Source: Cupriavidus gilardii J11 (GTDB lineage: Bacteria > Pseudomonadota > Gammaproteobacteria > Burkholderiales > Burkholderiaceae). From it: 32,792 nucleotides of DNA. The DNA is taken from positions 43,624-76,415 of the forward strand of contig NZ_VLJN01000015.1 of the NCBI RefSeq assembly GCF_007829435.1. The letters are read 5' to 3'. The translations under genes were made by a program, and so were the position numbers. This document shows, one piece after another, positions 7,225 through 23,005 of this stretch. Numbering within the stretch: position 1 is the first letter of the stretch; each line of letters opens with the position of its first letter. The notes beneath the pieces were generated by a model, which worked only from the letters and a program-made list of their open reading frames with translations, was not told the DNA's origin and did not search any database.

Positions 7225-7257
7225 GCTATACAGTATGTGATATATCAGACGAGTCAA
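7225..7257 (-). promoter_or_regulatory. Promoter plus operator (site A) of the formate dehydrogenase operon
   Basis: Read on the minus strand, TTGACT (7252-7257) is followed after 16 bp by TACTGT (7230-7235), a plausible sigma-70 promoter directed at fdwB. The perfect palindrome TGATATATCA (7238-7247) fills the spacer and runs into CATAC-TGTAT. The same string occurs in front of the ThDP-lyase operon and, nearly unchanged, before the ligase pair and by the panE-like gene. The AT-rich block stands out in a GC-rich region. Binding by the GntR protein encoded at 21063-21800 is inferred. Confidence 0.65.
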
Positions 7258-7296
7258 GCGCTTTTTGGATGATTGCCAACATCGGCCGGGAAATCC

Positions 7297-8199
7297 CTAG
7301 GGGCGTCGCGATCGGGTCGCAAGCCATATCACGGCCATCGCCACGCAGCCGATGCCGCCCAGTTGCGCGATGCCGACCGGTTCCCCCAGCAGCGTCGCGG
7401 CCAACGCTACCGCGGCAATCGGCGCCAATGCCGTGAACAACGCCGCCTCGGCGCCGCTGGTGCGCGCCGCGCCCGCATACCAGAGCAGATAGCCGCCCAC
7501 GGTCGGGATCAGCGCGTAGTACAGCACGGCCCACAGTGCCTGGTGGGGCAGCGCGCCTTGCCACGCGCCTTCGTAAATCGCCGGTCCTGCCGCGGCAAGC
7601 AGGCCGATCGCGCTCATCAGCGTGGACAGCACCAGCGGTGACGGCGCCTGTCGCAGCCGCTTGTTGAGCAGGATGAACAGGCTTTCGCACGCCACGGCGC
7701 CGAGCACCAGCGCGTTGCCCATCACCTGCTGGAACACCGCGCCGCCCTCCCCGTCTTCGGCTTCCGGAGCGGAAGGCACGGCCACCGCGATCACGCCGGC
7801 AGTGGCCAACCCGATCGCCAGCCACAGCGCCCGGTCCGGCCGCTCGCGCAGCACCAGCGTGGCGACCAGTGCCGACACCACCGGCAAGGTGCCTACGATC
7901 ACGCCGGCATCCGCGGCCGACGTCATGCGAAGGCCGGACAGCAGCAGGGTCGTATAGCCGGCGCTGCCGGCCAGCCCCTGCAGCACGAGCAGCGCCCAGT
8001 CGGCGCGCGCGAGCCGGGGCCACGGCGCGCGCTGCAGGCGCATCAACAGCAGAAAGACCGGCAGTGCGATGGCAAAGCGCAGCGCCGTCGCGGTAAACGG
8101 GGGCAGGCCGCCCGCGATGACCTTGCTGGCCACCACGGTGCTGCCGACCGTGACCATGGCCAGGGAAAGATAGAGATAGCCGACTTTGGTTGCCGACAT
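7297..8199 (-). CDS. EamA/DMT-family inner-membrane transporter
   Basis: The 300-residue protein is mostly hydrophobic, with about ten predicted membrane segments arranged as two EamA repeats (roughly residues 5-135 and 155-295). Typical phrases include GSTVVASKVIAGGLPP near the N terminus and the ALLGEPVGIAQLGGIGCV-like ending of the second repeat. Members of the drug/metabolite transporter superfamily export amino acids and other small metabolites; the substrate here cannot be predicted. The gene lies 111 bp downstream of an AraC-type regulator on the same strand, a frequent arrangement in which the regulator controls the exporter. It is followed by the formate dehydrogenase promoter, which makes that operon independent. 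Confidence 0.87.
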   Translation of the reverse strand: MSATKVGYLYLSLAMVTVGSTVVASKVIAGGLPPFTATALRFAIALPVFLLLMRLQRAPWPRLARADWALLVLQGLAGSAGYTTLLLSGLRMTSAADAGVIVGTLPVVSALVATLVLRERPDRALWLAIGLATAGVIAVAVPSAPEAEDGEGGAVFQQVMGNALVLGAVACESLFILLNKRLRQAPSPLVLSTLMSAIGLLAAAGPAIYEGAWQGALPHQALWAVLYYALIPTVGGYLLWYAGAARTSGAEAALFTALAPIAAVALAATLLGEPVGIAQLGGIGCVAMAVIWLATRSRRP

Positions 8200-8310
8200 G
8201 GTGCGCGCTCCGAAGGGTTGAGGAGGCGGCAGGATGCGGCGAAGTGTGGGAGGTGGTCTTGGATGAAATTGCAGGGGACGGGGGAGAGGGCAGTAACACC
8301 CTAACCACCA

Positions 8311-9123
8311 CTACCTCCCCACCACCCTCGCATACGCCCACGGCGACACCCCGTACGCCCGGACAAATACGCGCGTCATATGGCTCTGGTCCGCAAAGCC
8401 CGCAGCCAGCGCGGCCTGCGCCAGCGGATCGCCGCGCTCGATCAGCCCGCGTGCCAGATCCACGCGGCGCTGCAGCAGATAGGCATGCGGTGTCATCCCC
8501 GTCGCCTTGGCGAAACCGCGCAGCAGCTGGAAGCGGCTCAGGCCCGCCAGTTCGGCCAGCTGCTGCAGCGATGCCGGCGCCACCGGATCGTCGTCGATGC
8601 GGGCGCGCGCCCGCGCGACACCGGCCGGGACACCGCCGTGCGCAGCGGTTTCGACGCCGCTGCCGAACAGCCGCATGAACAAGGTCGCCAGCGCGGCGTC
8701 GCGACGCAGCCCGCCGGTAGAGTCCATGGGCGCGGCCATGGCCTGGAACAGGTGCAGGAACGAGCTTGCCGCGGCTGGGTCGCGCAGGACCGGCATGGTG
8801 AATTCGTCGACCATGCCGTCATCGCCGAGCCCGGCGCATTGCGCGCGAACGACGGCCGGCTCGAAATACAGCATGCGCCAGCTGCGGCCTCGTTCGTCGA
8901 GGGGAACGCCATCATGGACCTCGCCCGGATTCACGGTGATCAGGTCCCCTGCCTCGGCCTGCACGAGGCCACGGCCGCTGGCCGACCTCTGCGCGCCGGC
9001 AACGATCACGCCGACACCGAAATGGCCGTGGGTATGGCGCGGAAAGCGGTGACGCGAATGCGCTTCGACAGCGAAGACGCCCGGCAGCGAGCAAGGCAGC
9101 GAATGGAAGCCGGCGCTGGACAT
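8311..9123 (-). CDS. AraC-family transcriptional regulator
   Basis: The start at 9123 gives a 270-residue protein of normal length; the longer open frame upstream only shadows the neighbouring LysR gene. An N-terminal cupin-like sensing domain occupies about residues 10-150 (HTHGHFGVGVIVAG, then AGDLITVNPGEVHDG). Two helix-turn-helix motifs lie in the last 90 residues (LQQLAELAGLSRFQLLRGFAK and the QAALAAGFADQSHMTRVF region). An AGGGG ribosome-binding site precedes the ATG. It probably regulates the EamA transporter downstream, and possibly itself; the ligand is unknown. AraC proteins of this layout often sit next to LysE or EamA exporters. Confidence 0.88.
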   Translation of the reverse strand: MSSAGFHSLPCSLPGVFAVEAHSRHRFPRHTHGHFGVGVIVAGAQRSASGRGLVQAEAGDLITVNPGEVHDGVPLDERGRSWRMLYFEPAVVRAQCAGLGDDGMVDEFTMPVLRDPAAASSFLHLFQAMAAPMDSTGGLRRDAALATLFMRLFGSGVETAAHGGVPAGVARARARIDDDPVAPASLQQLAELAGLSRFQLLRGFAKATGMTPHAYLLQRRVDLARGLIERGDPLAQAALAAGFADQSHMTRVFVRAYGVSPWAYARVVGR

Positions 9124-9233
9124 GGCGGAGCCCCTGCGGTGGTGGACGATCGCCATATTGCCGCAAGCCTGCGTATCCCGGAAGCAGATAGCTATCGCAA
9201 GCCCGCCCTGCCGACCGGCCTGCCGCCCATGGC

Positions 9234-10142
9234 CTAGCCGGTCTTCAATGCGACCAGCGGCCGCTCCTGCTGCGCGATGGCGTCCCAGATCGCCGCCGCA
9301 TTGGGCTTGAGCGACCGTCCCTTGCGCCGCACCAGCATCACGGGCAGCGCCGCATGAGGGCGCAACGGCAGCAACACCACACCGGCCGGCAAGCCGGCAC
9401 CCCGCGCGCGCGATGGCACGATGCCAATGCCCTGCCGCCGCGCCACCATGCCGATCACCGCGCAGAAATGCCCCAGCGGCCGGTACAGGCGCGGGCGGAC
9501 ATGGTAAGCGGCCAGTGCCCGCTCGATCGCGGCATGCATGCCGGAGCAGCGATCGGGGCCGAACACCTGCGCGTCGTTCAGATCGCCCCATCCCAATGCC
9601 TCGCGCGAGGCCAGCGGATGGCCCGCCGGCAGCGCGACATGGAAGGCGTCCTCGTAGACGAGCTCGCATTGCAGCTCCGCGCAGGGCTCCGGATCGCTGA
9701 CGATGGCGAAGTCCGCCTCGCCGCTGCGCACGCTGTGCAGCGCGGCGTCCTGTCCGAGGTCGCGCAGCAGCAGGTCGATTTCCGGCAAGAGTGCCTGACA
9801 TGACTGCAGCCATCCCGGCACCGACAGCGACGACAGCATCGGCCCCAGCGCCAGCAGCACACGCCCATGCGGAGGCCGCGCGCTGCCATGGGTCTCCTGC
9901 AACGTCTGCTCGACCTCGTCGATCAGGTGGCAGATGCGCTCGGACAGATGCGTGCCGGCCTCGGTCAACTCGACCTGCCGGGTCGTGCGGTCGAACAGCC
10001 GCTGGTCGATCTCGTCCTCGAGCTCTCGCACGCTGCGGCTGACCGCCGATTGGGTCAGGCCGAGTTCGGCGGCGGCGCGCGTGAAGCTGCGATGCCGCGC
10101 CACGGCGGCGAATGCCTTCAACTGCGGAAGCGAGACGTTCAT
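9234..10142 (-). CDS. LysR-family transcriptional regulator
   Basis: The ATG at 10142, preceded by AGGAG, gives 302 residues. The winged helix-turn-helix is at about residues 3-62 (LPQLKAFAAVARHRSFTRAA, then LTQSAVSRSVRELE). A LysR substrate-binding domain follows at about 88-290. It is divergent to a second LysR gene across a 228-bp region holding two short inverted repeats. The obvious target would be itself or a neighbour. The open frame reaches back to 10214, but those codons have no ribosome-binding site and no family similarity. Effector unknown. Confidence 0.88.
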   Translation of the reverse strand: MNVSLPQLKAFAAVARHRSFTRAAAELGLTQSAVSRSVRELEDEIDQRLFDRTTRQVELTEAGTHLSERICHLIDEVEQTLQETHGSARPPHGRVLLALGPMLSSLSVPGWLQSCQALLPEIDLLLRDLGQDAALHSVRSGEADFAIVSDPEPCAELQCELVYEDAFHVALPAGHPLASREALGWGDLNDAQVFGPDRCSGMHAAIERALAAYHVRPRLYRPLGHFCAVIGMVARRQGIGIVPSRARGAGLPAGVVLLPLRPHAALPVMLVRRKGRSLKPNAAAIWDAIAQQERPLVALKTG

Positions 10143-10259
10143 CGGGGGTCTCCTCTTGCGCCGGCATCGGGCCGCCACGGGCCATGCCGCGTCGCTGTTC
10201 TTGTCTGCCGCCACGCCGGCCGCCTGGGTGCCGCGACGCGGGGATCGTCTTCGATGCTA

Positions 10260-10300
10260 GTGCAAACGACTATGCACCACGCCTTAACTTTTTTATTAAG
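10260..10300. promoter_or_regulatory. Candidate LysR-type binding sites between divergent lysR genes
   Basis: Two inverted repeats with 8-bp spacers lie here: GTGCA-N8-TGCAC at 10260-10277 and CTTAA-N8-TTAAG at 10283-10300. The second fits the T-N11-A type of LysR box and is AT-rich, so it may also overlap a promoter. They sit 70-110 bp upstream of the + strand lysR and about 120 bp upstream of the - strand one. The sequence cannot show which regulator, if either, binds. Confidence 0.4.
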
Positions 10301-10370
10301 ATCATTGACGATCCGCTATGGATGCGCCCGCGCCCGGCGTTCGTTGGGCGCATCACCTGCCGAGGCCGCG

Positions 10371-11315
10371 ATGAAAAACGCCACCCTGCGTCAGCTGAAG
10401 GTGTTCGAGACGGTCGCCCGCCATCTGAGCTTTTCGCGCGCGGCCGAGGAATTGCACCTGACCCAGCCTGCGGTATCCACGCAGGTACGGCAGCTGGAGA
10501 ACCATGTCGGCCTGCCGCTGTTCGAGCAGCTCGGCAAGAAGATCTACCTGACGCCGGCCGGCACCGAGATGCTGCACTACAGCCGCAGCATCATCCAGCA
10601 GTTCCGCGAGGCCGAGGACGCAATGTCGCAACTGAGCGGCATCGCCGGCGGGCGGCTCAATATTTCGGTGATCAGCGCGGGAGATTACTTCTTTCCGCGC
10701 GTGATCGCCGAGTTCATGCGCCGGCATCCGGGCGTCACGCTCAACCTGGCGGTGCACAATCGCGAGGAACTGCTGCATCAGCTGGCCGGCAACCTGACCG
10801 ATCTGGCGGTGATGGTGCGTCCGCCATCGGGCCTGGACACCGTGAACGAGTCGTTCGCACCGCATCCCTATGTCATTGTCGCGGCGCCAGACCATCCGCT
10901 GGTGGGCAAGCGCAACCTGCCCTTCTCGGCGCTGGCCGACGAGGCCTTCATCTGCCGCGAGAAGGGCTCCGATACGTGGAACTCGATGCAGGAGGGCATC
11001 GGCGCACGGCTGCAAAACGTGCGCATCGCCATGGAGATCAAGAGCACGGAGACCATCAAGCAGGCGGTGATCGCCAATATGGGCATCGCCTTCCTGTCCG
11101 CGCATACGGTGGCGCTGGAACTGCGCACCGGACATCTGGCCGTGCTGGACGTCGAGGGCTTTCCGGTCATGCTGAACTGGTACGTCGTTCATCGCAAGAA
11201 CAAGCGGCTGCCGCCGGTGGCGCTGGCCTTCAAGCAGTTTCTGCTGACCGAGGGCGCGGCGCAGATCGACAGGATCACGGCGGTGGATGGGTTGATACGC
11301 CGCCGTGGGCGGTAA
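10371..11315 (+). CDS. LysR-family transcriptional regulator, CbbR-like
   Basis: This 314-residue LysR protein begins MKNATLRQLKVFETVARHLSFSR, with the helix-turn-helix at about residues 5-64 (LHLTQPAVSTQVRQLENHVG) and an effector domain at about 90-300. The N-terminal phrase is close to that of CbbR-type regulators of Calvin-cycle genes, but no cbb genes are in the window, so this is only family resemblance. Many LysR proteins of this branch respond to carbon-metabolism intermediates. It is divergent to another lysR gene. A short inverted repeat (GTGGGCG/CGCCCAC, 11306-11327) overlapping its end and a REP-like palindrome follow. Confidence 0.86.
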   Translation: MKNATLRQLKVFETVARHLSFSRAAEELHLTQPAVSTQVRQLENHVGLPLFEQLGKKIYLTPAGTEMLHYSRSIIQQFREAEDAMSQLSGIAGGRLNISVISAGDYFFPRVIAEFMRRHPGVTLNLAVHNREELLHQLAGNLTDLAVMVRPPSGLDTVNESFAPHPYVIVAAPDHPLVGKRNLPFSALADEAFICREKGSDTWNSMQEGIGARLQNVRIAMEIKSTETIKQAVIANMGIAFLSAHTVALELRTGHLAVLDVEGFPVMLNWYVVHRKNKRLPPVALAFKQFLLTEGAAQIDRITAVDGLIRRRGR

Positions 11316-11347
11316 CGCAACGCCCACCGCGCGTTTCTCTCCCCTCT

Positions 11348-11371
11348 CCCTCTCCCGCGTGCGGGAGAGGG
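11348..11371. repeat. REP-like palindrome (CTCTCCCGC type)
   Basis: An 11-bp perfect stem, CCCTCTCCCGC paired with its complement, closes on a 2-nt loop. It belongs to the CTCTCCCGC/GCGGGAGAG family seen in other gaps of this window (13061, 20979, and degenerate at 24830). It follows the stop of the upstream lysR gene by 32 bp and lacks a T-run, so it is a dispersed repeat rather than a classical terminator. Confidence 0.7.
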
Positions 11372-11491
11372 GAAAGGCCTCCACCTATATACGATCGCTT
11401 ATGGTTCCGGCCATCAACTTCAATTGTCGTGAATGGTTCAGCGTTCCTATGCTGCAGTCATGTCCCACTGCATCCGTACCGAGGAGCGATC

Positions 11492-11812
11492 ATGGATACG
11501 CTGACGACCGACACGCTGGCCGCGAGCGCGGCTGCTTCCGAGAGCCGTACCGGGACCCCGCCCACGCCGTCGCGCGACGCGCAGCTGTGCGCCTATAACT
11601 CCGTGTTTGTCGAACTGGAGCTGGGTTTCAGCTGGGACCAGCAGATGTTCGACTGGCTGTGCGGCATCGAATGCGAGCGCACGCGGATCGCCCGCTATAT
11701 CGAGGAGTACCACGCGCATCTGCTGACGGCCTATGACGCGGACTTCCTGAGCCAGTTGATTCTGGACAAGAAGAACGCGCATCTCGAAGCGCGGGCGATG
11801 GGCGTCAACTGA
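11492..11812 (+). CDS. Hypothetical protein, 106 aa
   Basis: The ATG at 11492 is preceded by GAGGAG at ideal spacing. The first 30 residues are Ala/Thr/Ser-rich and probably disordered. The remainder is a compact, helix-prone, acidic/aromatic domain (ELGFSWDQQMFDWLCGIECERTRIARYI at about 43-70, then YDADFLSQLILDKKNAHLEAR). I do not recognise the family. No signal peptide or membrane segment is visible. It stands alone between a lysR gene and the end of the large minus-strand operon, with a 176-bp upstream gap holding a REP-like palindrome. The good ribosome-binding site and native codon use support a real gene. Confidence 0.65.
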   Translation: MDTLTTDTLAASAAASESRTGTPPTPSRDAQLCAYNSVFVELELGFSWDQQMFDWLCGIECERTRIARYIEEYHAHLLTAYDADFLSQLILDKKNAHLEARAMGVN

Positions 11813-11852
11813 ATCGCCCTTGGCCCATCGCATGCGGGGCCGTCCGCTTCCT

Positions 11853-11964: not shown

Positions 11965-12234
11965 TCAGCCCGGCCAACGGCGCCGGCCCCCTCCCTTCCA
12001 CGCCGACACACCCGCAACCGCACCAGCCAGCGTGATTGCGGCCGCCACAAGCAGCACGCCTTCCCGACCCGCCAGCAAGGTAGCCAGCACGGCCACAAGA
12101 AAACCCGCCATGGCACAGGCCATTCCGGGCCGCCAGCCCATTGCCTGCGCGGCCAGCCCGCCCATGGCGAGCGCGCAGGCCACCAGGTAGATCGATTCAT
12201 CGGGCGTTGGCATCGCGGGGCCCGGGGCGCTCAT
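11965..12234 (-). CDS. Small membrane protein, 89 aa, translationally coupled to the FAH-family gene
   Basis: The ATG at 12234 overlaps the stop of the preceding gene (ATGA), so translation is probably coupled. The protein has three hydrophobic segments at about residues 15-32, 36-53 and 58-78, with a basic C terminus (KGGGRRRWPG), suggesting a three-helix inner-membrane protein. I do not recognise a family. It is the last gene of the ThDP-lyase/frc operon. A role as a transport accessory or membrane anchor is possible, but nothing in the sequence proves it. Confidence 0.6.
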   Translation of the reverse strand: MSAPGPAMPTPDESIYLVACALAMGGLAAQAMGWRPGMACAMAGFLVAVLATLLAGREGVLLVAAAITLAGAVAGVSAWKGGGRRRWPG

Positions 12235-13004
12235 CCACCGACCGCGTTCACCAGCGAGCCGATACCGTCGATGCATACCTCCACCACCGAGCCGGCCTTC
12301 ATCGAACCCACGCCCAGCGACGTGCCGCATGCGATCACATCGCCTGGCATCAGCGTGAGATCGCGCGACAGCCGGCTGACCAGTTCCTCCGGTCCGAAGA
12401 TCATGTCCGACAGCGGGTAGCGCTGGCGTTCGGCGCCGTCCAGCCGCGTCACCACGGTGGCGTCGCGCCAGTTGAAGCCGGTGACGATGGCCGGGCCGAT
12501 GCAGCCGAACGTGTCGCTGCCCTTGGCGCGGCACCATTGCGCAAAGGTGGGATCGGCGGCGATCAACTCGGCCGCGGTGACGTCGTTGACGGCGGTGTAG
12601 CCAAAGATGTAGTCACTCGCGCGATCGACCGGCACATCGCGGCATACGCGTCCGATGACGATGCCAAGTTCGCCCTCGAAGACGATCTTGCCGGTGTAGC
12701 CGGACGGCCGCGCGATGGTATCGCCGGGCCCGGCCAGCGACGAGGCGGGCTTGAGCAGGAACAACGGATGCGCGGGCGCGGGCTTGTCGAGCTTGCGCGC
12801 CAGCGCGTGGAAGTTGTTCCACAGCGCGACGATCTTGCCGGGCTCGCACGGCGCAAGCAGGCGCACCTCGCTGCGCGGGAACGATACGCCGGTGGGACGC
12901 GGCACGGCATAGCCCGGTCCATCGTGCTCGAACACCCGCTTGCCGTCGAGCCGTCCGGTACGCGGCCGGCCATCGCCGGCATCGAAGCGAATCCAGGTTT
13001 GCAT
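12231..13004 (-). CDS. Fumarylacetoacetate hydrolase (FAH) family protein
   Basis: This 257-residue protein carries the FAH fold in its C-terminal 200 residues. The divalent-metal triad is Glu110 and Glu112 (in FEGELGIVIG) and Asp141 (FGYTAVNDVTA), followed by the RAKGSDTFGCIGP loop. Family members hydrolyse or decarboxylate 2-oxo/2,4-dioxo acids, for example acylpyruvates, oxaloacetate or 2-oxohept-3-enedioate. In this operon an oxaloacetate-decarboxylase- or acylpyruvase-like reaction is conceivable but not provable. The start at 13004 follows an AGGA-type site; the frame extends to 13118, but only through a REP palindrome. It is separated from the upstream acyl-CoA synthetase by that repeat and overlaps the small membrane-protein gene by 4 bp. 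Confidence 0.85.
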   Translation of the reverse strand: MQTWIRFDAGDGRPRTGRLDGKRVFEHDGPGYAVPRPTGVSFPRSEVRLLAPCEPGKIVALWNNFHALARKLDKPAPAHPLFLLKPASSLAGPGDTIARPSGYTGKIVFEGELGIVIGRVCRDVPVDRASDYIFGYTAVNDVTAAELIAADPTFAQWCRAKGSDTFGCIGPAIVTGFNWRDATVVTRLDGAERQRYPLSDMIFGPEELVSRLSRDLTLMPGDVIACGTSLGVGSMKAGSVVEVCIDGIGSLVNAVGG

Positions 13005-13060
13005 GGAGAGGTCCTGTGGGTCTTCATCTGCGAATGCCTGGGGGCGGTTTGCTGTTATTG

Positions 13061-13142: not shown

Positions 13143-15272
13143 TCAAATCTTCCCCGCCCCCCGCGCCCACTTGTACTTCGCCCCCAGCACCGCCACCGGG
13201 ATCTCCGTCGAGTACGCATAGGCCGGCACGCCATGCTCGTACAGGTACTCCGCCGCCTCCTCCACCTGCACGTCGCCAGCCAGCGAAGCGACGATCGGCT
13301 TTTCGATGCCGCGCGCCGCCATCTCCTGCTTGACCTCGACCACCAGCCTGGCGAAGACCATCGGCGGCGTGATGATGGTGTGCCAGTAGCCCAGGATGAT
13401 CGCGTGGATGCGCGGGTCCTCCAGGCCCAGCCGGATGGTGTTCTGGTACGTGCTGGGCGGCTCGCCGCCGGTGATGTCGACCGGATTGCCCGCCGCGCCG
13501 AATGGCGGAATGAACTTGCGGAAGGCAGCGTCGAGGTCTTCCGGCATCGCCATCAGCGACAGGCCGTTATCCACGCAGGCATCGGACAGCAGCACGCCCG
13601 AGCCTCCCGCGCCGGTGATGATGACCACGTTCTCGCCCTTGGGCGTCGGCAGCTTCGGAATGCCGCGCGCAAACTCCAGCAGGTCGCGCAGCGAACGGGC
13701 CCGGATCACGCCGCACTGCCTGAACACGTCCTCGTAGACGCGATCGTTGCCGGCCAGCGCGCCGGTATGCGAACTGGCGGCGCGCGCGCCGAGGCTGGTG
13801 CGGCCAGCCTTGAGCACCACCACCGGCTTGCGCTTCGACACACGGCGCGCGGCCTCGGCAAAGGCGCGTCCGTCCTTCAGGTCCTCGCAGTGCTGGGCGA
13901 TGATCTCGGTGTCGTCGTCCTGCTCGAAGAACGTCAGCAGATCGTCTTCGTCGATATCGGACTTGTTGCCCAGGCCCACGATGGCCGACACGCCCATCTT
14001 CGCGGAACGCGAGAAGCCGATGATCGCCATGCCGATGCCGCCGGACTGCGACGACAGCGCGGCCTTGCCCTTGACGTCATAAGGCGTGCAGAAGGTGGCG
14101 CACAGGTTCTTCGGCGTGTAATAAAAGCCGTAGATGTTCGGGCCCATCAGACGGATGCCATGCTTGCGGGCGATCGCGACGATCTCTTCCTGCCCCTCGA
14201 CGTTGCCGGTCTCGGCAAAGCCCGACGGGATCAGCACCGCGCCCGGAATACCCTTCTTGCCGACCTCCTCCAGCGCCTGGGCCACGAACTTGGCCGGAAT
14301 CGCGAACACCGCCACGTCGATGTCGCCCGGTACGTCAAGCACGCTCTTGTAGGCGGTCATTCCCATGATCTCTTCGGCCTTGGGATGGATCGGATAGATC
14401 TTGCCCTGGTACCCGCCGTTGATCAGGTTCTTCATCACCGAGTTGCCGATCTTGCCGTCCTCGGCCGACGCGCCGATCACCGCCACCGTATCGGGCCGCA
14501 TGATGCGGTTCATCTGCGCGACGATCTGCTCCTGCGTGGGTCGATAGCGCTGCGGCTGCGGCGCGTGGTCGAGCACGATGCGCACGTCGGCAGCCACCGC
14601 GCCCGATGCACTGGCGAACACCGGGTTCAGGTCCAGCTCGGCGATCTCGGGGAAGTCGCTGACCAGCTCCGACACGCGGCGGATCATGCCGGCCAGCGCC
14701 TCGCGGTTGACCGGCTCCGATCCGCGCACGCCCTTGAGCATCTCGGCGGCAGCGATGCCATCGAGCATGCCCAGCGCGTCCTGCTCCGTCGCGGGCGCCA
14801 TGCGGAACGTGATGTCCTTGAGCACCTCGACCAGCACGCCGCCGAGGCCAAAAGCCACCAGCTTGCCAAACGACGGATCGGTGACCGCGCCAATGATGAC
14901 CTCCTGCCCGCCGCCGATCATCTGCTGCACCTGCACGCCGAGGATCTCCGCCTTGTCGTTGTAGCGCTTCGCGTTGTCGAGAATGGTGCGATAGCCTTCC
15001 TCGACCTTCTGCGCGCTGTCGAGCCCGACCAGCACGCCGCCGGCCTCGGTCTTGTGCAGGATGTCGGGCGACACGATCTTCAGCACCACCGGAAAGCCCA
15101 TGCGCGACGCCAGCTTCGCCGCCTCGTCGGCGGATCTGGCCAGGCCCTCGCCAGGCACCGCGATGCCATAGGCGTCGCACACCAGCTTGCCCTCGGGCGC
15201 CGTCAGCGCGGTGCGTCCCTGTTCCTTGGCGGTGGCCAGAATATTGCGCACCGCGTCCTTGTCATACGCCAT
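13143..15272 (-). CDS. NDP-forming acyl-CoA synthetase (acetate-CoA ligase family), fused beta-alpha
   Basis: The ATG at 15272 follows a perfect GGAGG and gives 709 residues. The order is ATP-grasp first (about 8-235; HKTEAGGVLVG, then GVQVQQMIGGGQEVIIGA), then a CoA-binding Rossmann domain (about 258-350; VAVIGASAEDGKIGN), then the succinyl-CoA-ligase-like flavodoxin domains (about 375-700). The phosphohistidine is probably His502 in SSHTGALAG. Such enzymes interconvert an acid, CoA and ATP with acyl-CoA, ADP and Pi. It is the third gene after the ThDP enzyme and formyl-CoA transferase, so its acid is probably a substrate or product of those enzymes (oxalate, formate, or a 2-hydroxy acid). 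This would give a CoA-activation route independent of the transferase. Substrate specificity cannot be read directly. Confidence 0.85.
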   Translation of the reverse strand: MAYDKDAVRNILATAKEQGRTALTAPEGKLVCDAYGIAVPGEGLARSADEAAKLASRMGFPVVLKIVSPDILHKTEAGGVLVGLDSAQKVEEGYRTILDNAKRYNDKAEILGVQVQQMIGGGQEVIIGAVTDPSFGKLVAFGLGGVLVEVLKDITFRMAPATEQDALGMLDGIAAAEMLKGVRGSEPVNREALAGMIRRVSELVSDFPEIAELDLNPVFASASGAVAADVRIVLDHAPQPQRYRPTQEQIVAQMNRIMRPDTVAVIGASAEDGKIGNSVMKNLINGGYQGKIYPIHPKAEEIMGMTAYKSVLDVPGDIDVAVFAIPAKFVAQALEEVGKKGIPGAVLIPSGFAETGNVEGQEEIVAIARKHGIRLMGPNIYGFYYTPKNLCATFCTPYDVKGKAALSSQSGGIGMAIIGFSRSAKMGVSAIVGLGNKSDIDEDDLLTFFEQDDDTEIIAQHCEDLKDGRAFAEAARRVSKRKPVVVLKAGRTSLGARAASSHTGALAGNDRVYEDVFRQCGVIRARSLRDLLEFARGIPKLPTPKGENVVIITGAGGSGVLLSDACVDNGLSLMAMPEDLDAAFRKFIPPFGAAGNPVDITGGEPPSTYQNTIRLGLEDPRIHAIILGYWHTIITPPMVFARLVVEVKQEMAARGIEKPIVASLAGDVQVEEAAEYLYEHGVPAYAYSTEIPVAVLGAKYKWARGAGKI

Positions 15273-15348
15273 GTCAGACCTCCATTGGGTCATGGATTGC
15301 AGCGAAGAATGGAAAGCAACATCACGGGCGGCCGACGGGCCGGCCGCC

Positions 15349-16578
15349 TCAGATCGCGCCGGCCGCGCGCAGCGCCTCGATCTGCGCCGGCGAGCGGCCC
15401 AGCCATTCGAGAATCTCGGCGGTGTGCTCGCCCAGCAGCGGCGACCGTTCGACCTCGACCGGCGACGCCGACAGGTTCACCGGGCAGCCCAGCTGCACAT
15501 AACGGCCGCGTTCGGGATGGTCCAGCTCCACCAGATAGCCGCGCTCGTACAGCGAACGATCCTCGATCAGATCCTTCATCGACAGGATCGGACCGCAAGG
15601 CACGTCCACCTCGTTGAGCGCTTCCATGACCTCGAACTTGCTCTTCGTGCGCGTCCATTTCTCGATGATCGAGAAGCACTCCTCCAGGCATTTGAGGCGG
15701 GCCTCGGGCGTGGCGAACTGCGGATGCGAGATCAGGTCTTCCCTGCCGCACAGGCGCATCAACGGCTCCCAGCCCTGCGGCTGCACGATGACGTACACGT
15801 AGTCGTTGGCCCCTCCCGGCGCGCAACGCAGCGCCGCACCCGGCTGGCCGCCGCCCGACGCATTGCCGGCGCGCGGCACGTAGTCGTGGAACTCCTTGTT
15901 CGGATACTCGCGCAGCGGCCCGGCCGCCAGGCGCTGCTGATCGCGCAGCTTGACGCGGCACAGGTTCAGCACCGCGTCCTGCATCGCGACCTCGACGCGC
16001 TGGCCCTCGCCGCTGCGCTCCCGGTGCAGCAGCGCGGCAAGGATGCCGATCACGCAATGCACGCCGGTGCCCGAGTCGCCGATCTGCGCGCCGGTCACGG
16101 TTGGCGCGCCATCCTCGGTGCCGGTGGTCGATGCCGATCCACCCATGCACTGCGCGACGTTCTCGTACGCCTTGCAGTCGGCATACGGTCCCGGACCGAA
16201 GCCCTTGATGGACGCGAAGATCAGGCGGGGATTCAGCTCGTGCAGCCGGTCCCAGCCGAAGCCCGCGCGGTCCAGCACGCCGGGGCCGAAGTTCTCGACC
16301 AGCACGTCGCAGCGCTGCAGCAGATCCTCGAGGACGGCTCTTCCCTCGGGGGTCTTCATGTTCAGCGTCAGGCTGCGCTTGTTGGAGTTCAGCATCGTGA
16401 AGTAGAGGCTGTCCGCATTGGGCACGTCGCGCAGCTGGCTGCGGGTGATATCCCCGCGGCCGGGCAGCTCGACCTTGATCACGTCCGCGCCCAGCCAGGC
16501 CATCAGCTGGGTCGCCGACGGTCCCGCCTGCACATGCGTCATGTCCAGTATGCGCACGCCTTCCAGTGCCTTGCTCAT
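15349..16578 (-). CDS. frc: Formyl-CoA:oxalate CoA-transferase (class III)
   Basis: A 409-residue class III CoA-transferase that moves CoA from formyl-CoA to oxalate or a similar acid. Family landmarks: KAYENVAQ with catalytic-type Glu139; IGDSGTG with Asp168, which corresponds to the aspartyl-CoA-forming Asp169 of the Oxalobacter enzyme; a glycine loop [10 protein letters not shown]; and the ending [12 protein letters not shown]. Residue 48 is Gln, as in E. coli YfdW, rather than the Trp of Oxalobacter Frc, a position known to affect substrate inhibition. The ATG at 16578 is preceded by GGAGAC. It lies 113 bp after the ThDP-enzyme stop, with a strong hairpin in the gap, and is followed by the acyl-CoA synthetase. 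Similarity to YfdW extends over the full length, so the family call is firm; the in vivo acceptor is inferred. Confidence 0.9.
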
Positions 16579-16691: not shown

Positions 16692-18446
16692 TTACTTGTA
16701 CATGGTCTGGTTCTTGGTGCCCGGCGCGTACTCGCGCGGATCGACCCAGATATTGATCACGGCCGATTTGCCGGTGCGCTGGATCGCCTCGCGCCCGCGC
16801 CTCAGCGCGGCGGCGATCTCGTTCGGATCGCGCACCTCCTCGCCGTATCCGCCGAGCATCTGCGCGAACTGGCTGAACGGCACGTCCGACAGCAGATTGC
16901 CGACGTTGCCGCGCGTCTCGCCGTACTTGGCAAGCTGGCCATAGCGGATCTGGTTCATCGCCGAGTTGTTGCCGATCACCGCCAGATACGGCACGCCGAA
17001 GCGGTTGGCGGTCTCCATGTCGAAGGCCGTCATGCCGAACGAGCCGTCGCCGTAGTAGCACAGCACTTCCTTGCCGGGATTGGCCAGCCCCGCCGCGATG
17101 GCGAAGCCGGTGCCCACGCCGAGCGAGCCGAGCGCACCCGGGTCCATCCATTGGCCCGGCCGGCGCGGCCGTACCGCCTGCGCGCTGATGGTGACCACAT
17201 CGCCGCCGTCACCGATGTAGATCGTGTCGTCGCCCAGGAACTCGTTCAGCTCGTAGGCCACGCGATACGGATGGATCGGCGTGCTGTCGGAACGGAACAG
17301 CGGCATCAGCTTCTCGGTGGCCTTGGCTTCGGCCTCGGTCAGATCCGCCATCCACTTGCGGCGGGTCTGCCGCTTGTCCTGCTTGATGCGGCCGCCGGCG
17401 GCCTGCAGCACCGCGCCCAGGATCGCGCCCGGGTCGCCTACCAGTCCCAGGTCGATGTCGCGGTTCTTGCCAACGGTGCGGTAATCCATGTCGATCTGCA
17501 CCAGCTTCAACTCCTTGCTGATGCGCTTGCCGTAGCCCATGCGGAAGTCGAACGGCGTGCCGACGATCACCAGCACATCGGCGTTGGCGAAGGCCTGCGA
17601 TCGCGTGCGGTCGAAATGGTGGGGATCGCCCGGCGGCAGCAGGCCGCGGCTGGCGCCGTTGAAGTAGCCGGGGATATCGAGGCCGCGCAGCAGCGCGATG
17701 GCTTCCTCGTGGCCGCGTGCCGTCCATACCTGCTGGCCGAACAGGATGGCCGGACGTTCGGCGTCGACAAGGATGTCGGCCAGCCGCTCGATATCGCGCG
17801 GATCGCCGATTGATCTGGTCGAGGCGCGATAGTGACCGGGCTGCGGCACCACGGCGCGTGCAAGTTCCACTTCACGGTCCAGCACATCGCGAGGGATTTC
17901 CAGATAGGCTGGACCGGGCGCGCCGTTGAAGCATTCGCGCGCGGCCATCGAGATCATGTCGGCGACGCGCTCGGTGCTCGGAATGCTGGCCGCGAACTTG
18001 GTGATCGGCGCCATCATGTCCACATGCGGCAGGTCCTGCAGCGAACCCATCTTGTGCTGCGACAGCGCGCCCTGCCCGCCGATATGCAGGATCGGGCTTT
18101 CCGAGCGGAAGGCAGTGGCCACGCCGGTGACCGCGTTGGTGCAGCCCGGCCCCGCGGTCGTCACGACGCAGCCCAGCTTGCCGGTCTGGCGCGCGTAACC
18201 GTCGGCGGCATGCGCGGCGACCTGCTCGTGCCGCACGTCGATGATTCGGATGCCCTCGTCGACGCAGCCGTCGTAGATGTCGATGATGTGGCCCCCGCAC
18301 AGCGTGAAGATGGTATCCACGCCTTCGTTCTTCAGCGCGCGCGCCACCAGGTGGCCGCCCGAGACGATGCCGGCTTCGCGGCTCTTCTGCTTCAGGGTGT
18401 CATCGGCCGTCGTCGAATCCGGCCGCAGCGATACGACTGCAGACAT
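16692..18446 (-). CDS. ThDP-dependent lyase/decarboxylase (oxalyl-CoA decarboxylase / 2-hydroxyacyl-CoA lyase / acetolactate-synthase superfamily)
   Basis: This 584-residue enzyme has the three-domain ThDP fold. The N-terminal PYR domain contains Glu74 in [15 protein letters not shown], the cofactor-activating glutamate. The central domain spans about 210-350, and the C-terminal PP domain has the GDGS...NN motif (466-469, Asn493-494). Its position before frc suggests oxalyl-CoA decarboxylase. However, the segment after residue 120 ([16 protein letters not shown]) lacks the YEE signature of Oxalobacter Oxc and reads more like 2-hydroxyacyl-CoA lyases and acetolactate synthases. The C terminus ([12 protein letters not shown]) is also unlike Oxc. 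Formyl-CoA is the plausible shared intermediate with Frc in either case. It is the first gene of the operon; a promoter with the shared operator lies about 130 bp upstream. Fold certain, reaction unsettled. Confidence 0.8.
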
Positions 18447-18572
18447 GTGTGGGTCTCCTCGTTGACTTCGGCGCAGCCGGGCTTGCCGGGCGCCGCTTTC
18501 CTTCTTGTCGGCCGGGCGGCCACCTTTTGACCTCTCGCTCGGTCTCCATTTGTCGGGCGACCTTGATGAAAT

Positions 18573-18601
18573 ACCGTATGTGATATATCAGAAGTGAGCA
18601 A
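18573..18601 (-). promoter_or_regulatory. Promoter plus operator (site B) of the ThDP-enzyme/frc operon
   Basis: On the minus strand TTGCTC (18596-18601), a 17-bp spacer and TACGGT (18573-18578) form a plausible promoter. The perfect palindrome TGATATATCA (18581-18590) fills the spacer and continues as CATACGGTAT. A 15-bp string through the palindrome and CATAC is identical to site A, 11 kb away. Such identity in non-coding DNA argues for one shared regulator. Confidence 0.68.
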
Positions 18602-18766
18602 GGAAAATTGCGGCCCGGGCGCGTGAAATCGACGATGCAGCGCAGCAAATGAGCGATAAATTGACCGATATATGCGGCCTTCTTGTTATATCTCCGTCAA
18701 TAATGGGCGGCAGTCATCAATCACCGCATACACGGACCTCGGGCAAATTCAGGGACAAAAATCGCC

Positions 18767-18800
18767 TTGGCGCCTGTTGATATATTACATACCATATTTC
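18767..18800 (+). promoter_or_regulatory. Promoter plus operator (site C) of the ligase-like pair
   Basis: TTGGCG (18767-18772), a 17-bp spacer and TACCAT (18790-18795) point toward the ligase pair starting at 18873. The spacer carries TGATATATTA (18778-18787), one base off the palindrome of sites A and B, followed by CATACCATATTTC. The orientation is flipped relative to site B, matching the divergent transcription. The 426-bp gap between the two operons holds nothing else recognisable. Confidence 0.65.
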
Positions 18801-18872
18801 TGCGCATTTCCTGCGCCCAACGCGATGGGTGACCGGCCGCGCGCCCTCATCACAACAAGCCAGCGAGGAGAC

Positions 18873-20069
18873 ATGAACATTCACGAATATCAGGCCAAGG
18901 AGCTGCTGCGTCGCTACGACGTCGCGGTACCGCGCGGGGCGGTGGCCTTCACCCCCGACGAAGCGGCCAGCGCCGCGCGCCGGATCGGCGGACCGGTATG
19001 GGTGGTCAAGTCGCAGATCCATGCCGGAGGACGCGGTGCGGGCCGGTTCGCCGACGACCCATCGGGCAAGGGCGGCGTGCGCGTCGTGAAGTCGGTGGAC
19101 GACGTGCGCGCGCAGGCGGAGCAGATGCTCGGCAAGGTGCTGGTCACCAGGCAGACCGGCGCGGCCGGCCGGCAGGTGCGCCGGCTCTATATCGAGGAAG
19201 GCTGCGACATCGCGCGCGAGCTGTATCTCGGCATGCTGATCGACCGCGCCACGTCGCGCATCACCGTGATGGCGTCGACCGAAGGCGGCATGGAAATCGA
19301 GGAGGTCGCGGCGCGCACACCGGAAAAGATCCTGAAGCTGGCGATCGACCCGGTCACCGGCATCCAGCCTTTCCATGCGCGCCGGCTCGCGTTCGGCCTG
19401 GGCCTGTCCGGCAAGCAGGTCAATGCGGCCACACGGTTCATCCTGTCCGCATACCGCGCATTCACCGAGCTCGATGCCTCGGTGGTGGAGATCAACCCGC
19501 TGGTGGTCACCGGCAGCGGCGACGTGATGGCGCTCGACGCGAAGTTCAATTTCGACGACAACGCGCTGTTCCGCCATCCCGATATCGAGGCGATGCGCGA
19601 CGAGACCGAGGAAGACCCGGCGGAGATCGAGGCCGCGCGCCATAGCCTCAACTACGTGAAGCTCGACGGCAATATCGGCTGCATGGTCAATGGCGCGGGG
19701 CTGGCGATGGCCACCATGGACATCATCCAGCTCTACGGCGGCCAGCCGGCCAACTTCCTCGACGTAGGTGGCGGCGCCACGCGCGAGCGCGTCGCGGCCG
19801 CGTTCCGGCTGATCCTCGCCGACCGCAACGTCAAAGGCATCCTGGTCAATATCTTCGGCGGCATCATGCGTTGCGACGTGATCGCCGAAGGCGTCGTCGC
19901 GGCCGCGCGCGAGGTCGACCTGACGGTGCCGCTGGTGGTGCGGCTCGAAGGGACCAATGTCGAAATGGGCAAGGCCATCTTGCGCGACTCGGGTCTGCCC
20001 ATCGTATCCGCCAGCAATCTGGCCGACGCCGCCGCCAAGGTGGTGGCCGCAATCCGGGGAGGAAAATGA
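18873..20069 (+). CDS. Succinate/malate-CoA ligase-like beta subunit (SucC/MtkA family)
   Basis: A 398-residue ATP-grasp acyl-CoA ligase beta subunit: ATP-grasp domain at about 1-240 ([12 protein letters not shown], then QIHAGGRG at 48-55, [15 protein letters not shown]), and the ligase CoA-binding domain to the end ([39 protein letters not shown]). A longer loop at about 56-68 ([14 protein letters not shown]) resembles alphaproteobacterial SucC more than the short loop I recall for betaproteobacterial SucC. GAGGAG precedes the ATG. With the alpha subunit 1 nt downstream it should form an ATP-dependent ligase. The shared operator and acid-metabolism neighbours suggest a specialised paralogue for malate, oxalate or another dicarboxylate rather than the TCA enzyme. 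Substrate is inferred only. Confidence 0.87.
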
Positions 20070-20070
20070 A

Positions 20071-20946
20071 ATGGCCGTGCTGATCGACCGCAATACCAGG
20101 GTGCTGTGCCAGGGCTTCACCGGCGCGCAGGGCACCTTTCACTCGGAACAGGCGCTGGCCTATGGCACGCGGATGGTGGGCGGGGTCACGCCCGGCAAGG
20201 GTGGCGACACGCACCTCGGCCTGCCGGTGTTCGACACCGTGGCCGACGCGGTGCGGCACACCGGGGCGGAGGCATCGGTCATCTATGTGCCGCCGCCCTT
20301 CGCCGCCGATGCGATCCTCGAAGCGGTGGACGCGGGCATCGGCCTGATCGTCTGCATCACCGAGGGCATTCCGGTGCTGGACATGGTGCGGGTCAAGCGC
20401 GCGCTGGCCGGGTCCGGCAGCCGGCTGGTCGGACCGAACTGTCCGGGCGTGATCACGCCCGGCCAATGCAAGATCGGCATCATGCCGGGCCATATCCACC
20501 GGCCGGGCAAGATCGGCGTGGTATCGCGCTCCGGTACGCTGACCTACGAGGCGGTGGCGCAGACCACGGCGGCGGGCCTGGGCCAATCGACCTGCATCGG
20601 CATCGGCGGCGATCCGGTCAACGGCACCGACTTCATCGACTGCCTGCGGATGTTCCTCGAGGACGACGACACCGAAGGCATCATCATGATCGGTGAGATC
20701 GGCGGCTCGGCCGAGGAAGACGCCGCGCACTTCCTGCGCGACGCGGGCAGCGACAAACCCGTGGTCGGCTTCATCGCCGGCACCACTGCGCCGCCGGGAC
20801 GGCGCATGGGACATGCCGGGGCGATCATTTCAGGCGGAACGGGCACCGCCGAGGCAAAGATCGAGGCGATGCGAGAGGCGGGCATCCATGTTGCGCGCTC
20901 GCCGGCGGAGCTTGGGATGACGATGGTGAAGGCGTTGGGGGGATAG
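20071..20946 (+). CDS. Succinate/malate-CoA ligase-like alpha subunit (SucD/MtkB family)
   Basis: This 291-residue alpha subunit has an N-terminal CoA-binding Rossmann domain ([34 protein letters not shown]) and a ligase domain ([20 protein letters not shown]). The phosphohistidine is His248 in [14 protein letters not shown]. It starts 1 nt after the beta-subunit stop, with its GGGGAGG ribosome-binding site inside the end of that gene, so the two are co-translated. Length matches SucD (289) and MtkB-type subunits. A long perfect palindrome follows 32 bp after the stop, facing the gntR gene. Confidence 0.88.
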
Positions 20947-20978
20947 GGTTTTTGTCGGGGTTTCGCATGCTGTGACCG

Positions 20979-21031
20979 CCCTCTCCCCCGGCCCCTCTCC
21001 CGCAAAGCGGGAGAGGGGCCGGGGGAGAGGG
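20979..21031. repeat. Perfect 25-bp REP-like palindrome between convergent genes
   Basis: Left arm 20979-21003 and right arm 21007-21031 are exact complements around an AAA loop, and pairing extends about six more bases with one mismatch (TGAC outside). It is the best copy of the repeat family in the window. It sits between the ends of the + ligase pair and the - gntR gene, so it could act as a bidirectional transcription barrier, although it lacks T-runs. Confidence 0.85.
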
Positions 21032-21062
21032 CAGTCAGGGCAAAACCGCTACACCATCCCCC

Positions 21063-21800
21063 TCAATCCAGGAAATCGCAATACCGCTCCACATAATCGG
21101 CCAGATCCAGCGAGTGCTGGCGCACCAGCCGTTCGGCCAGTTCGGTATCGCGGCGCTCCAGCGCCTCGATGATGCGCAGGTGATCGACGATCGAGCGCGC
21201 GGCGCGGTCGCTCTGGGAGATGGTCATTTTGCGGATGGCCCGGACATGGATGAAGATGTTCCGGATCGTGTCCATGATGATCTGCGACTTCGACAGCTGC
21301 ACGATCGCCTGGTGGAAGGCGATGTTGGCATCCGAGTATTCCTCGATATGCTCGGCCGGGGTGGTATCCCGGAAGCTGTCGAACATGTGCCGCAGCTGCG
21401 CGATTTCCTCGTCCCTCGCATGAATCGTGGCAAGGCGCGCCGCCATGCTTTCCAGCGCGGCCCACATCTGGATCATCTCGACGATCTCACGCTTGGTCTT
21501 GCGCATGATGTAGATGCCCCGGCGCGGCACCGTGCGCAGGAAACCCTCCTGCTCCAGCAGCGTCATCGCTTCGCGGATGGGCGTGCGGCTCACGCCCAGC
21601 GCCTCGCTCAATACGCGTTCGTCCAGGCGGATCTCGTCGCGCGACTGGTAGATGTCCGCATCCGCGATGGCCTGCCGCAGCATCGCATAGGCCTGATCGC
21701 GCAGGCTCGCGCCCGCATTGATCGGCTGCAGCGATAAGGCGAGCGCCGGCGACGCTTCGGCGGTGGTCGGGGAAAGCTCGGCTTGACGTTGCACGGACAT
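21063..21800 (-). CDS. GntR-family transcriptional regulator, FCD (FadR/VanR) subfamily
   Basis: A 245-residue regulator. The winged helix-turn-helix is at about residues 33-98 (RLDERVLSEALGVSRTPIREAMTLLEQEGFL). The all-helical FCD effector domain is at about 105-240, with its metal-site residues intact: Asp157 and His163 (DANIAFH), His207 (DHLRII) and His229 (RQHSLDL). FCD regulators usually bind carboxylic acids and often control catabolic genes next door. Here the gene lies between the ligase pair and the panE-like gene, and a degenerate copy of the shared operator lies in its own upstream region. It is therefore the best candidate for the regulator of sites A-E. The first 30 residues are a poorly structured extension; the ribosome-binding site is weak, so a slightly later start is possible. 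Confidence 0.9.
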   Translation of the reverse strand: MSVQRQAELSPTTAEASPALALSLQPINAGASLRDQAYAMLRQAIADADIYQSRDEIRLDERVLSEALGVSRTPIREAMTLLEQEGFLRTVPRRGIYIMRKTKREIVEMIQMWAALESMAARLATIHARDEEIAQLRHMFDSFRDTTPAEHIEEYSDANIAFHQAIVQLSKSQIIMDTIRNIFIHVRAIRKMTISQSDRAARSIVDHLRIIEALERRDTELAERLVRQHSLDLADYVERYCDFLD

Positions 21801-21898
21801 GGAATCGCTCGTCGGTGAAGATCGCCGGCCTGCCCGATGCAGGCCGGCGCAAGGATTGCGGCGCGAGGCTGATTGATCACCGCCACGGTCGCTCCTTT

Positions 21899-21916
21899 GT
21901 TGTATATGGTATATCA
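21899..21916 (-). promoter_or_regulatory. Degenerate shared operator (site E) upstream of gntR
   Basis: On the minus strand this reads TGATATACCATATACAA. It keeps the TGATATA half of the core and the TAC at the -10-like position seen in sites A-D, but one palindrome base and the following bases differ. It lies about 100 bp upstream of the gntR start, in the gap after the panE-like gene, so negative autoregulation is the simple reading. Confidence 0.5.
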
Positions 21917-21935
21917 GTTCACATGGACCGCGAGT

Positions 21936-22910
21936 TCAACGCTGCTGCGCGACCTTCTCGCGCAGCTTGATCAGCGCGAGCACCGCGTCGATGGTCGGAG
22001 TGGGCTGGTCCACCAGCCGGCCCATTTCCTGCACAACGGTCAGCAGCGGATCGATCTCCATCGGCCGCCCTGCCTCCAGGTCCTGCAGCATCGAGGTCTT
22101 GTGCGCGCCCACCGCGCCCGCGCCGTCGATACGGCGTTCGACATCCACCCGGAAATGGACGCCGAAGCGCTCGGCGATGTCCTTGGCCTCCAGCATCATC
22201 TTGCGCGACAGCGCCCGCGTGCCAGGATCGGATGTGATCACGTCCAGAGTCGCATGGGTCAGCGCGCTGATCGGGTTGAAACACAGATTGCCCCACAGCT
22301 TCAGCCAGATCTCGTTACGGATGTCGTCGCGCACCGGCGCTTCCAGATCCGCCGCCATCATCGCCTCGGCCAGCGCGGCCACCCGCTGGGAGCGGGTGCC
22401 ATCGGGCTCACCGAGCGGGAACTTCTTGCCGTACACATGGCGGATCACACCGGGTGCAACGATTTCGGCGGCGGGATAGAGCACGCAGCCGATCGCCCGT
22501 TCCGGCCCGAGCAGCCGCCACTGGCGTCCGCCCGGATCCACGCTTTCGAGCGTCGTTCCTTCCAGCGCGCCACCATGCCGGTGGAAATACCAGTACGGAA
22601 TGCCGTTCACGCCAGTGATCACGGCGGTCCGCGGCCCGAGCAGCGGCTGCATCGTCTCCACGACGCCGGGCACGGAATGGGCCTTCAGCGTAATGAATAC
22701 ATAGTCCTGCGGTCCCAGTTCGCGGGGATCCGACGTGCACCGCACCTTCTGCACGCGCTCCTCGCCGTCGATCAGCAGCTTGACGCCGTTTTCCTGCATG
22801 GCCGCCAGATGCGCGCCGCGCGCCACGAAGCTGACGTCGATGCCCGCCCGCGCCATTTGCGCGCCGATATAGCCGCCGATAGCACCGGCGCCGTAAATGC
22901 AGACCTTCAT
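21936..22910 (-). CDS. 2-dehydropantoate 2-reductase (ApbA/PanE) family oxidoreductase
   Basis: This 324-residue NAD(P)H-dependent reductase has an N-terminal Rossmann fold (MKVCIYGAGAIGGYIG) and an all-helical C-terminal domain. The catalytic set of ketopantoate reductase is present: Asn102 (GVNGIP), Lys204 and Asn208 (IWLKLWGN), and Ser273 and Glu285 with the same 12-residue spacing as in the E. coli enzyme. The ATG at 22910 follows GGGAGA. Annotated PanE paralogues are not always pantothenate enzymes: in Methylobacterium extorquens a PanE2 protein was reported as oxalyl-CoA reductase. With frc, formate dehydrogenase and a shared operator in the window, oxalyl-CoA or another 2-oxo-acyl substrate is a reasonable hypothesis here. 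It is transcribed toward gntR, 135 bp upstream of it. Confidence 0.87.
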   Translation of the reverse strand: MKVCIYGAGAIGGYIGAQMARAGIDVSFVARGAHLAAMQENGVKLLIDGEERVQKVRCTSDPRELGPQDYVFITLKAHSVPGVVETMQPLLGPRTAVITGVNGIPYWYFHRHGGALEGTTLESVDPGGRQWRLLGPERAIGCVLYPAAEIVAPGVIRHVYGKKFPLGEPDGTRSQRVAALAEAMMAADLEAPVRDDIRNEIWLKLWGNLCFNPISALTHATLDVITSDPGTRALSRKMMLEAKDIAERFGVHFRVDVERRIDGAGAVGAHKTSMLQDLEAGRPMEIDPLLTVVQEMGRLVDQPTPTIDAVLALIKLREKVAQQR

Positions 22911-22964
22911 GGGTTGTCTCCCGGATGTGGTTTTGGATTCTGTGCGCGCCCATGCCGCGAACAC

Positions 22965-23005
22965 TGGTATATCACATACTATATTTCAACCGTTACGAAT
23001 CACAA
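22965..23005 (-). promoter_or_regulatory. Operator (site D) and promoter in the panE-like/opgD gap
   Basis: The core TGGTATATCA (22965-22974) is followed on the + strand by CATACTATATTTC, nearly identical to site C. On the minus strand TTGTGA (23000-23005), 16 bp and TATAGT (22978-22983) make a good promoter for the panE-like gene, with the operator just downstream of its -10. In contrast to sites A-C, the motif's own orientation points toward opgD, so control of either gene, or both, is possible. Confidence 0.6.

Follow-up and report, generated by a model that had tools for sequence, protein, structure and literature searches.

FCD-type GntR repressors such as FadR, LldR and PmiR act on short palindromic operators. 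The enzymes of oxalotrophy are known, and the process matters for carbon cycling. In Cupriavidus necator H16, deletion of frc–oxc abolished growth on oxalate and deletion of apbA2, a gene near frc–oxc that is 51% identical to Methylobacterium panE2, slowed growth (accessible sections of PMC7486775). In Burkholderia phytofirmans PsJN, mutants established the oxalate role of oxc, frc and an antiporter gene, and oxalotrophy is important for plant colonization by Paraburkholderia (accessible sections of PMC3886118). Those sections name no regulator or operator for either system (‘gntr’ does not occur in the former, nor ‘regulator’ in the latter). More broadly, our searches of open papers brought up no named regulator of oxalotrophy in this family: no GntR regulator of oxalate genes appears in open-literature titles and abstract openings, a scope outside which most subscription journals lie, in the accessible sections of PMC3886118, PMC8305402, PMC7486775, PMC5116747, PMC7176365, PMC2864759, PMC12542777 and PMC12927642, or in PMC9476978. 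Here we describe a 15-bp motif, GTATGTGATATAYCA, that recurs in the promoter gaps of a 32,792-nt stretch of the Cupriavidus gilardii J11 genome (contig NZ_VLJN01000015.1, positions 43,624–76,415; hereafter the window). We regard this motif as very probably the operator through which an FCD-type GntR repressor governs the breakdown of oxalate in Cupriavidus, Paraburkholderia and their kin.

The proposed controller, encoded at 21066–21800 on the minus strand, resembles the described FCD repressors in its N-terminal GntR winged helix-turn-helix (PF00392, 46.4 bits; cut-off 27) and C-terminal FCD domain (PF07729, 89.5 bits; cut-off 24.3), in the 10-bp palindromic core of its putative operator and in having a site at its own promoter. 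It reaches no named equivalog (the best NCBIfam model, phnR_burk, scores 103.9 bits against a cut-off of 271.5), and its best solved match, 7xp0, is a ‘probable transcriptional regulator’. The locus differs from the known repressor systems in that its targets are oxalate genes and in that a −10 box, not the palindrome, accounts for one arm of the 15-bp motif. With the oxalate systems of C. necator H16 and B. phytofirmans PsJN it shares the kinds of gene, namely frc, panE/apbA2 and an antiporter (accessible sections of PMC7486775 and PMC3886118); both of those systems have oxc, whereas the genome studied here has no canonical oxc over the cut-off. The regulon is thus of a known type, an FCD–GntR repressor with its operator; it is well supported computationally, and a sharper prediction about an enzyme is attached to it.

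The motif consists of a 10-bp palindromic core, TG(A/G)TATA(T/C)CA, and a CATAC arm. The core reads exactly TGATATATCA at 7238 and 18581, and carries one change at 18778 (TGATATATTA) and at 21907 and 22965 (both TGGTATATCA). Operator 1 (7233–7247, plus strand) precedes the formate dehydrogenase genes fdwB/fdwA on the minus strand, and operator 2 (18576–18590, plus strand) precedes a minus-strand operon encoding a thiamine diphosphate (ThDP) enzyme, Frc and a CoA ligase; neither has a mismatch to GTATGTGATATAYCA. Operator 3 (18778–18792, minus strand; one mismatch) lies before a sucC/sucD-like ligase pair on the plus strand, operator 4 (21902–21916, plus strand; two mismatches) before gntR on the minus strand, where we propose that it is autoregulatory, and operator 5 (22965–22979, minus strand; no mismatches, in the Y form of the motif) before a minus-strand panE/apbA2-like gene. 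At up to three mismatches these five are all the matches in the window, every one in a promoter gap, against a background of 67.3% G+C; 100 dinucleotide shuffles of the window gave a mean of 0.16 matches and a maximum of 2. Scored with a position weight matrix trained on relatives’ sites, the window left out, the five sites reach 29.5–38.5 bits, and the best score in 30 first-order Markov windows was 17.1. A first-pass annotation of the window had reported the identical copies at 7238 and 18581 and the altered ones at 18778, 22965 and 21907, had called the last the weakest and had judged five copies in promoter gaps unlikely to arise by chance. All five were located at those positions, operator 4 has the lowest matrix score of the set (29.5 bits), and the shuffles agree with the judgement on chance.

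The motif is also rare in the genome as a whole (4,878,234 bases in 66 contigs). At two mismatches, the 4.88 Mb contain seven matches, five of them those of the window, and the reversed control gives none. The sixth match, exact and on another contig, lies upstream of an oxalate/formate antiporter gene, 363 bases from its start (TIGR04259, 532 bits over the 379 residues read; cut-off 335). The seventh (contig C9, L006), at two mismatches, lies inside long open frames and was treated as chance. Six of the seven matches therefore precede gntR or genes fitting one pathway, and the targets include frc, the oxalate/formate antiporter, panE/apbA2 and formate dehydrogenase, as expected of an oxalate regulon. 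The first-pass annotation, which had proposed such a scan, spoke of a local regulon: the regulon stands, but the antiporter site on another contig shows that it is not only local. Its common theme, which the annotation had not named, is oxalate catabolism.

Conservation among relatives supports the same grouping. We collected the best 80 of 186 loci from a GntR search (1.6 Mb in total). At two mismatches, 79 of these GntR-ortholog loci have at least one site, and in 76 a site lies within 500 bp upstream of gntR; counting both strands and overlaps, the loci hold 333 matches, against 8 for the reversed pattern. The motif is thus kept in relatives, a comparison that had likewise been proposed at the outset. 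The relatives’ sites precede panE, gntR, sucCD, ThDP–frc–ligase operons, canonical oxc–frc, an frc–hydrolase–pntAB–antiporter arrangement, further antiporters and antiporter–fdwB–fdwA operons (the pntAB and hydrolase/FAH labels were read from the sequences, with no family match, and the antiporters in the second gene map of relatives were found through another antiporter reference, OFA2). Across relatives, then, most targets have to do with oxalate use (antiporters, frc, oxc, panE/apbA2 and formate dehydrogenase), and gntR itself is also among them.

The motif also tracks the regulator. In a survey of 150 family genomes it was found at one mismatch in 50, and the reversed pattern gave 7 matches in all 150. 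A GntR ortholog of at least 80% identity is present in 48 genomes, 46 of which have the motif; among the other 102 it occurs in 4, with one mismatched match each (Fisher p ~2e-31, relatedness ignored). In the two that lack it, G081 and G116, sites with two mismatches occupy the same gaps (L135 and L136). Eleven genomes with only a 71% GntR have no motif at one mismatch, and the one of these that was looked at, G031 (L137), has drifted sites scoring 29.9 bits before gntR and 26.2 before panE. The motif is absent at one mismatch from all 14 genomes in which oxalyl-CoA decarboxylase (OXC) was matched but GntR was not, and it therefore follows the regulator rather than the pathway genes. Together with the six palindromic sites in own or target promoters of this genome, the tracking supports the earlier suggestion that the GntR/FCD protein is the simplest controller. 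From the tracking and the site at its own promoter, GntR is predicted to bind these sites.

Promoter geometry points to how it might act. On the gene strand, the first base of CTTG stands exactly 12 bases upstream of the core in 103 of the 315 unique sites (mirror control, 1) and 11 bases upstream of it in a further 25. In all 103, a TANNNT hexamer (TACNNT in 102) lies 17 bases after a TTGNNN hexamer; only the final T of this −10-like hexamer is independent evidence, because TAC belongs to the searched motif, and the final T is absent in many of the other 212 sites. In the window, the core is framed on the gene strand by TTGACT-16 bp-TACTGT at operator 1 (fdwB), TTGCTC-17 bp-TACGGT at operator 2 (ThDP enzyme) and TTGGCG-17 bp-TACCAT at operator 3 (sucC), and the antiporter site on the other contig (C11) has CTTG at −11. 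Operator 5 begins where the TATAGT of a promoter-like TTGTGA-16-TATAGT before panE ends, and the consensus of the gntR sites shows no −35-like box. At many catabolic promoters, then, the core fills the −35/−10 spacer and the CATAC arm is in part the −10 box, an arrangement that would account for a motif with a palindromic centre and a one-sided outer part.

Repression is the likely mode of action, because the core sits in the −35/−10 spacer or just past the −10 box. GntR bound to a core between −35 and −10, with the CATAC arm over −10, or to the panE core just past −10, would block RNA polymerase until released by an oxalate-derived ligand; our guess is that the inducer is oxalate or oxalyl-CoA. 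Release would induce the oxalate/formate antiporter (its gene lies on a separate contig here) for uptake, Frc and the ADP-forming ligases for activation, the ThDP enzyme (in relatives, canonical OXC) for decarboxylation, panE/apbA2 for reduction to glyoxylate, fdwAB for formate oxidation, and gntR itself. FCD proteins of both kinds, activators and repressors, exist, and GntR might bind the same sites as an activator or in both capacities; we consider this unlikely, since the core occupies positions where a bound protein usually blocks transcription.

Several observations weigh against a GntR-repressed oxalate regulon as drawn here. The geometry is incomplete: 187 of the 315 unique sites, with sites of gntR and panE among them, have no CTTG at −12 or −11, the −10-like hexamers match the consensus weakly, and the panE promoter was the only one that consensus scans detected. 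A panE start is present in 58 loci; in 33 of them a site precedes panE, and the 25 without one are L060 and loci of Paraburkholderia/Burkholderia where panE is placed elsewhere in the locus. No site precedes gntR in L013 or L035, and in L025 the only one there has three mismatches. Thiomonas delicata (L060), with a GntR of 87% identity and a matching helix-turn-helix stretch, has no site in 20.7 kb; the best candidate near its gntR scores 5.1 bits, and the case is an unexplained exception. Sites also occur before genes with no obvious oxalate role (L106:4933, L126:4300, L125:4211, L120:4268 and L111:4703, from four relatives’ genomes), among them a deacetylase-like gene, an oxidoreductase cluster and a LysR gene, as labelled from sequence; these are either further targets or chance matches. 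Finally, the 80% identity line in the survey was drawn after the tables had been seen, and when all 59 GntR matches are counted the motif is present in 46, a tally that a neighbouring LysR-type regulator equals with 46 of 61. The choice of GntR therefore rests on other evidence.

The LysR gene (10368–11312) is conserved beside the oxalate genes, and its product could itself bind the motif: an ortholog occurs in 61 of the 150 genomes, and 46 of the 50 motif-bearing genomes are among them, as many as have GntR at any identity. Even so, we regard LysR binding as quite improbable. None of the 44 divergent LysR/antiporter gaps has a site at two mismatches, against 76 of the 80 gntR promoters, and it is because gntR carries the site itself that we prefer GntR. 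The motif is missing at one mismatch from 15 of the 61 LysR genomes, compared with 2 of the 48 with a GntR of at least 80% identity, and G037 and G038 have LysR but neither GntR nor the motif. A 10-bp palindrome also suits an FCD protein better than it does the T-N11-A box of LysR regulators. The LysR protein is CbbR-like by NCBIfam, below the cut-off, and its gene is divergent from an antiporter gene in 44 of the 80 loci; it is possibly a second oxalate regulator. In Pandoraea-like genomes, a second GntR paralog (73–74% identity) adjoins a second ThDP gene (L139:2740–5460, and L142), and the L139 operators are weaker or altered.

Assignment to GntR also has to be weighed against the element being shared promoter sequence only, a −35 box, spacer and −10 box with no dedicated regulator, as the fixed distances of CTTG and TACNNT around many sites might suggest. 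Against this, the core persists at gntR and panE sites that lack the CTTG box, and the motif is absent from the 14 genomes that have OXC but not GntR; in addition, T6, TATA at 9–12 and C14 read 1.00 in 248 unique sites, although selection at two mismatches favours such conservation. We therefore hold the promoter-only explanation to be very improbable. Chance AT-rich matches have a negligible probability: the loose 10-mer core does produce them (10 matches in the window against 2.49 expected, the five extra ones at two mismatches), but the window shuffles and the empty genome control led us to reject both the chance and the loose-motif readings, and the 15-bp site is conserved across genera.

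The operator further draws attention to an enzyme, so far overlooked, that may take the place of canonical OXC. No canonical OXC over the TIGR03254 cut-off is encoded in this genome; the best match is the ThDP enzyme of the window (16695–18446, minus strand), which scores 226.3 bits against a cut-off of 739.4. With OXC (TIGR03254; 2c31, 7ayg) it shares the ThDP-enzyme domains, the ThDP-activating Glu and an operon with frc. It differs at five residues, Y120, E121, Y483, S553 and R555, which we take to be OXC substrate residues: they are present in 22 of 22 OXC sequences and in 0 of 17 ThDP sequences (numbering from 2c31; the alignment near Y120 and Y483 is perhaps off by a few columns). The best curated model is ‘acetolactate synthase’, below its cut-off, and the closest solved relatives are 2-hydroxyacyl-CoA lyases (HACLs; 7pt3, 278.6 bits; 8vza, 254.8), ahead of the OXC structure 2c31 (170).

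The two enzymes may replace each other. Among 60 Cupriavidus genomes, 42 have OXC (40 over the cut-off, 2 partial), 14 the ThDP enzyme, 1 both and 5 neither, a near-exclusion with a Fisher p of 2e-8 (relatedness ignored). The 48 genomes with GntR divide into 29 with OXC only, 14 with the ThDP enzyme only, 3 with both and 2 with neither; of the last two, G048 carries fragments of the ThDP gene at the ends of contigs (L140, L142), and G061 has the frc slot without either gene (L141). Five OXC loci (L016, L023, L032, L034 and L041) keep the same sucCD–site–site–frc slot with the ThDP gene absent. A tree of GntR (36 rows, 29 labelled) shows three changes between OXC and ThDP labels, at least two of them on well-supported branches, and serves as a guide only, because gntR may move with the cluster. 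We predict that the ThDP enzyme is probably a second, non-orthologous OXC whose active site differs from the canonical one and comes from the 2-hydroxyacyl-CoA lyase branch of the family, and that it has been swapped with canonical OXC more than once inside one GntR regulon. In L080, a 125-residue ThDP C-terminal piece (11003–11347, 46% identity) lies between the operator and frc; it is perhaps the remnant of a lost ThDP gene.

The principal alternative is that the ThDP enzyme is a 2-hydroxyacyl-CoA lyase feeding Frc with formyl-CoA from another acid. An actinobacterial 2-hydroxyisobutyrate lyase cluster also has a GntR gene beside the lyase (accessible sections of PMC7176365). The enzyme nevertheless falls below the HACL cut-off (361 against 600 bits), and its genomic setting here is oxalate catabolism; our literature search found no paper on an OXC/HACL/acetolactate synthase phylogeny. 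Glyoxylate carboligase was considered and rejected: neither TIGR01504 (711.2) nor PRK11269 (791) is among the enzyme’s best 25 of 51 families (the 25th at 215 bits), and a true glyoxylate carboligase is encoded elsewhere in the genome (L090, 1163 bits), so that role is already filled. The operator offers a candidate controller, perhaps a set of oxalate-responsive promoters, and a route to oxalate genes that escape similarity searches. A likely alternative OXC is the first gene caught in this way, and surveys that seek only canonical oxc may therefore wrongly score such strains as non-users of oxalate.

The other genes under the predicted operators fit the same pathway. The window frc (15352–16578, minus strand; TIGR03253, 631.5 bits; cut-off 504.2) is the genome’s only TIGR03253 match over the cut-off. 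A fused ADP-forming acyl-CoA ligase (13143–15293, minus strand; PF13549, PF19045, PF13607) is presumably in the same operon. It may prime the oxalate cycle with CoA together with the sucC-like β-subunit (18873–20066) and sucD-like α-subunit (20071–20943) on the plus strand, each over the cut-off of its NCBIfam succinate–CoA ligase model. Further along the minus strand, a hydrolase-like gene (12234–13007) is 70% identical to a gene in L012 and adjoins the ligase or frc in many relatives; the FAH label is our assumption, with no family match behind it, and the L012 copy has no NCBIfam match at 1e-100. The panE-like gene (21939–22910, minus strand; NF005089, 534.9 bits; cut-off 223) is likely to encode an oxalyl-CoA reductase of the apbA2/panE2 type, a role suggested by the C. 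necator apbA2 mutant (accessible sections of PMC7486775). Two C. necator loci, L024 and L025, each have beside frc and oxc a panE gene that is 85% identical to that of the window, and its place suggests that it is apbA2.

The two-subunit dehydrogenase at 2514–7082 would oxidize the formate product. It comprises, both on the minus strand, a molybdopterin catalytic subunit (2514–5363; PF00384, PF01568), presumably fdwA and formate-specific by its gene order and domain make-up, and a fused NuoE/NuoF-like subunit (5376–7082; NuoF- and NuoE-family matches below equivalog cut-offs) that we take to be fdwB. Elsewhere in Cupriavidus, the fdw operator is followed by an antiporter–fdwB–fdwA operon (L107, L110, L112, L121, L127, L132 and L134), whereas the window shows no antiporter in that position.

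The first-pass annotation had placed the 22965 site before both the panE-like gene and opgD. It is more likely to belong to panE, because a site precedes panE in Cupriavidus loci with no opgD match (for example L016, L028, L032 and L036); we retain panE as its target and disfavour opgD. Only about 78% of the opgD frame (23134–24699) is covered by its alignment to relatives, and an overlapping frame (24018–24812) carries what is apparently the opgD C-terminal stretch, a label read from sequence; opgD at 23134–24812 may be frame-shifted or misassembled. At 26307–31221, where there is no operator match, a two-component sensor and an NtrC-type regulator adjoin a dctA-like dicarboxylate symporter.

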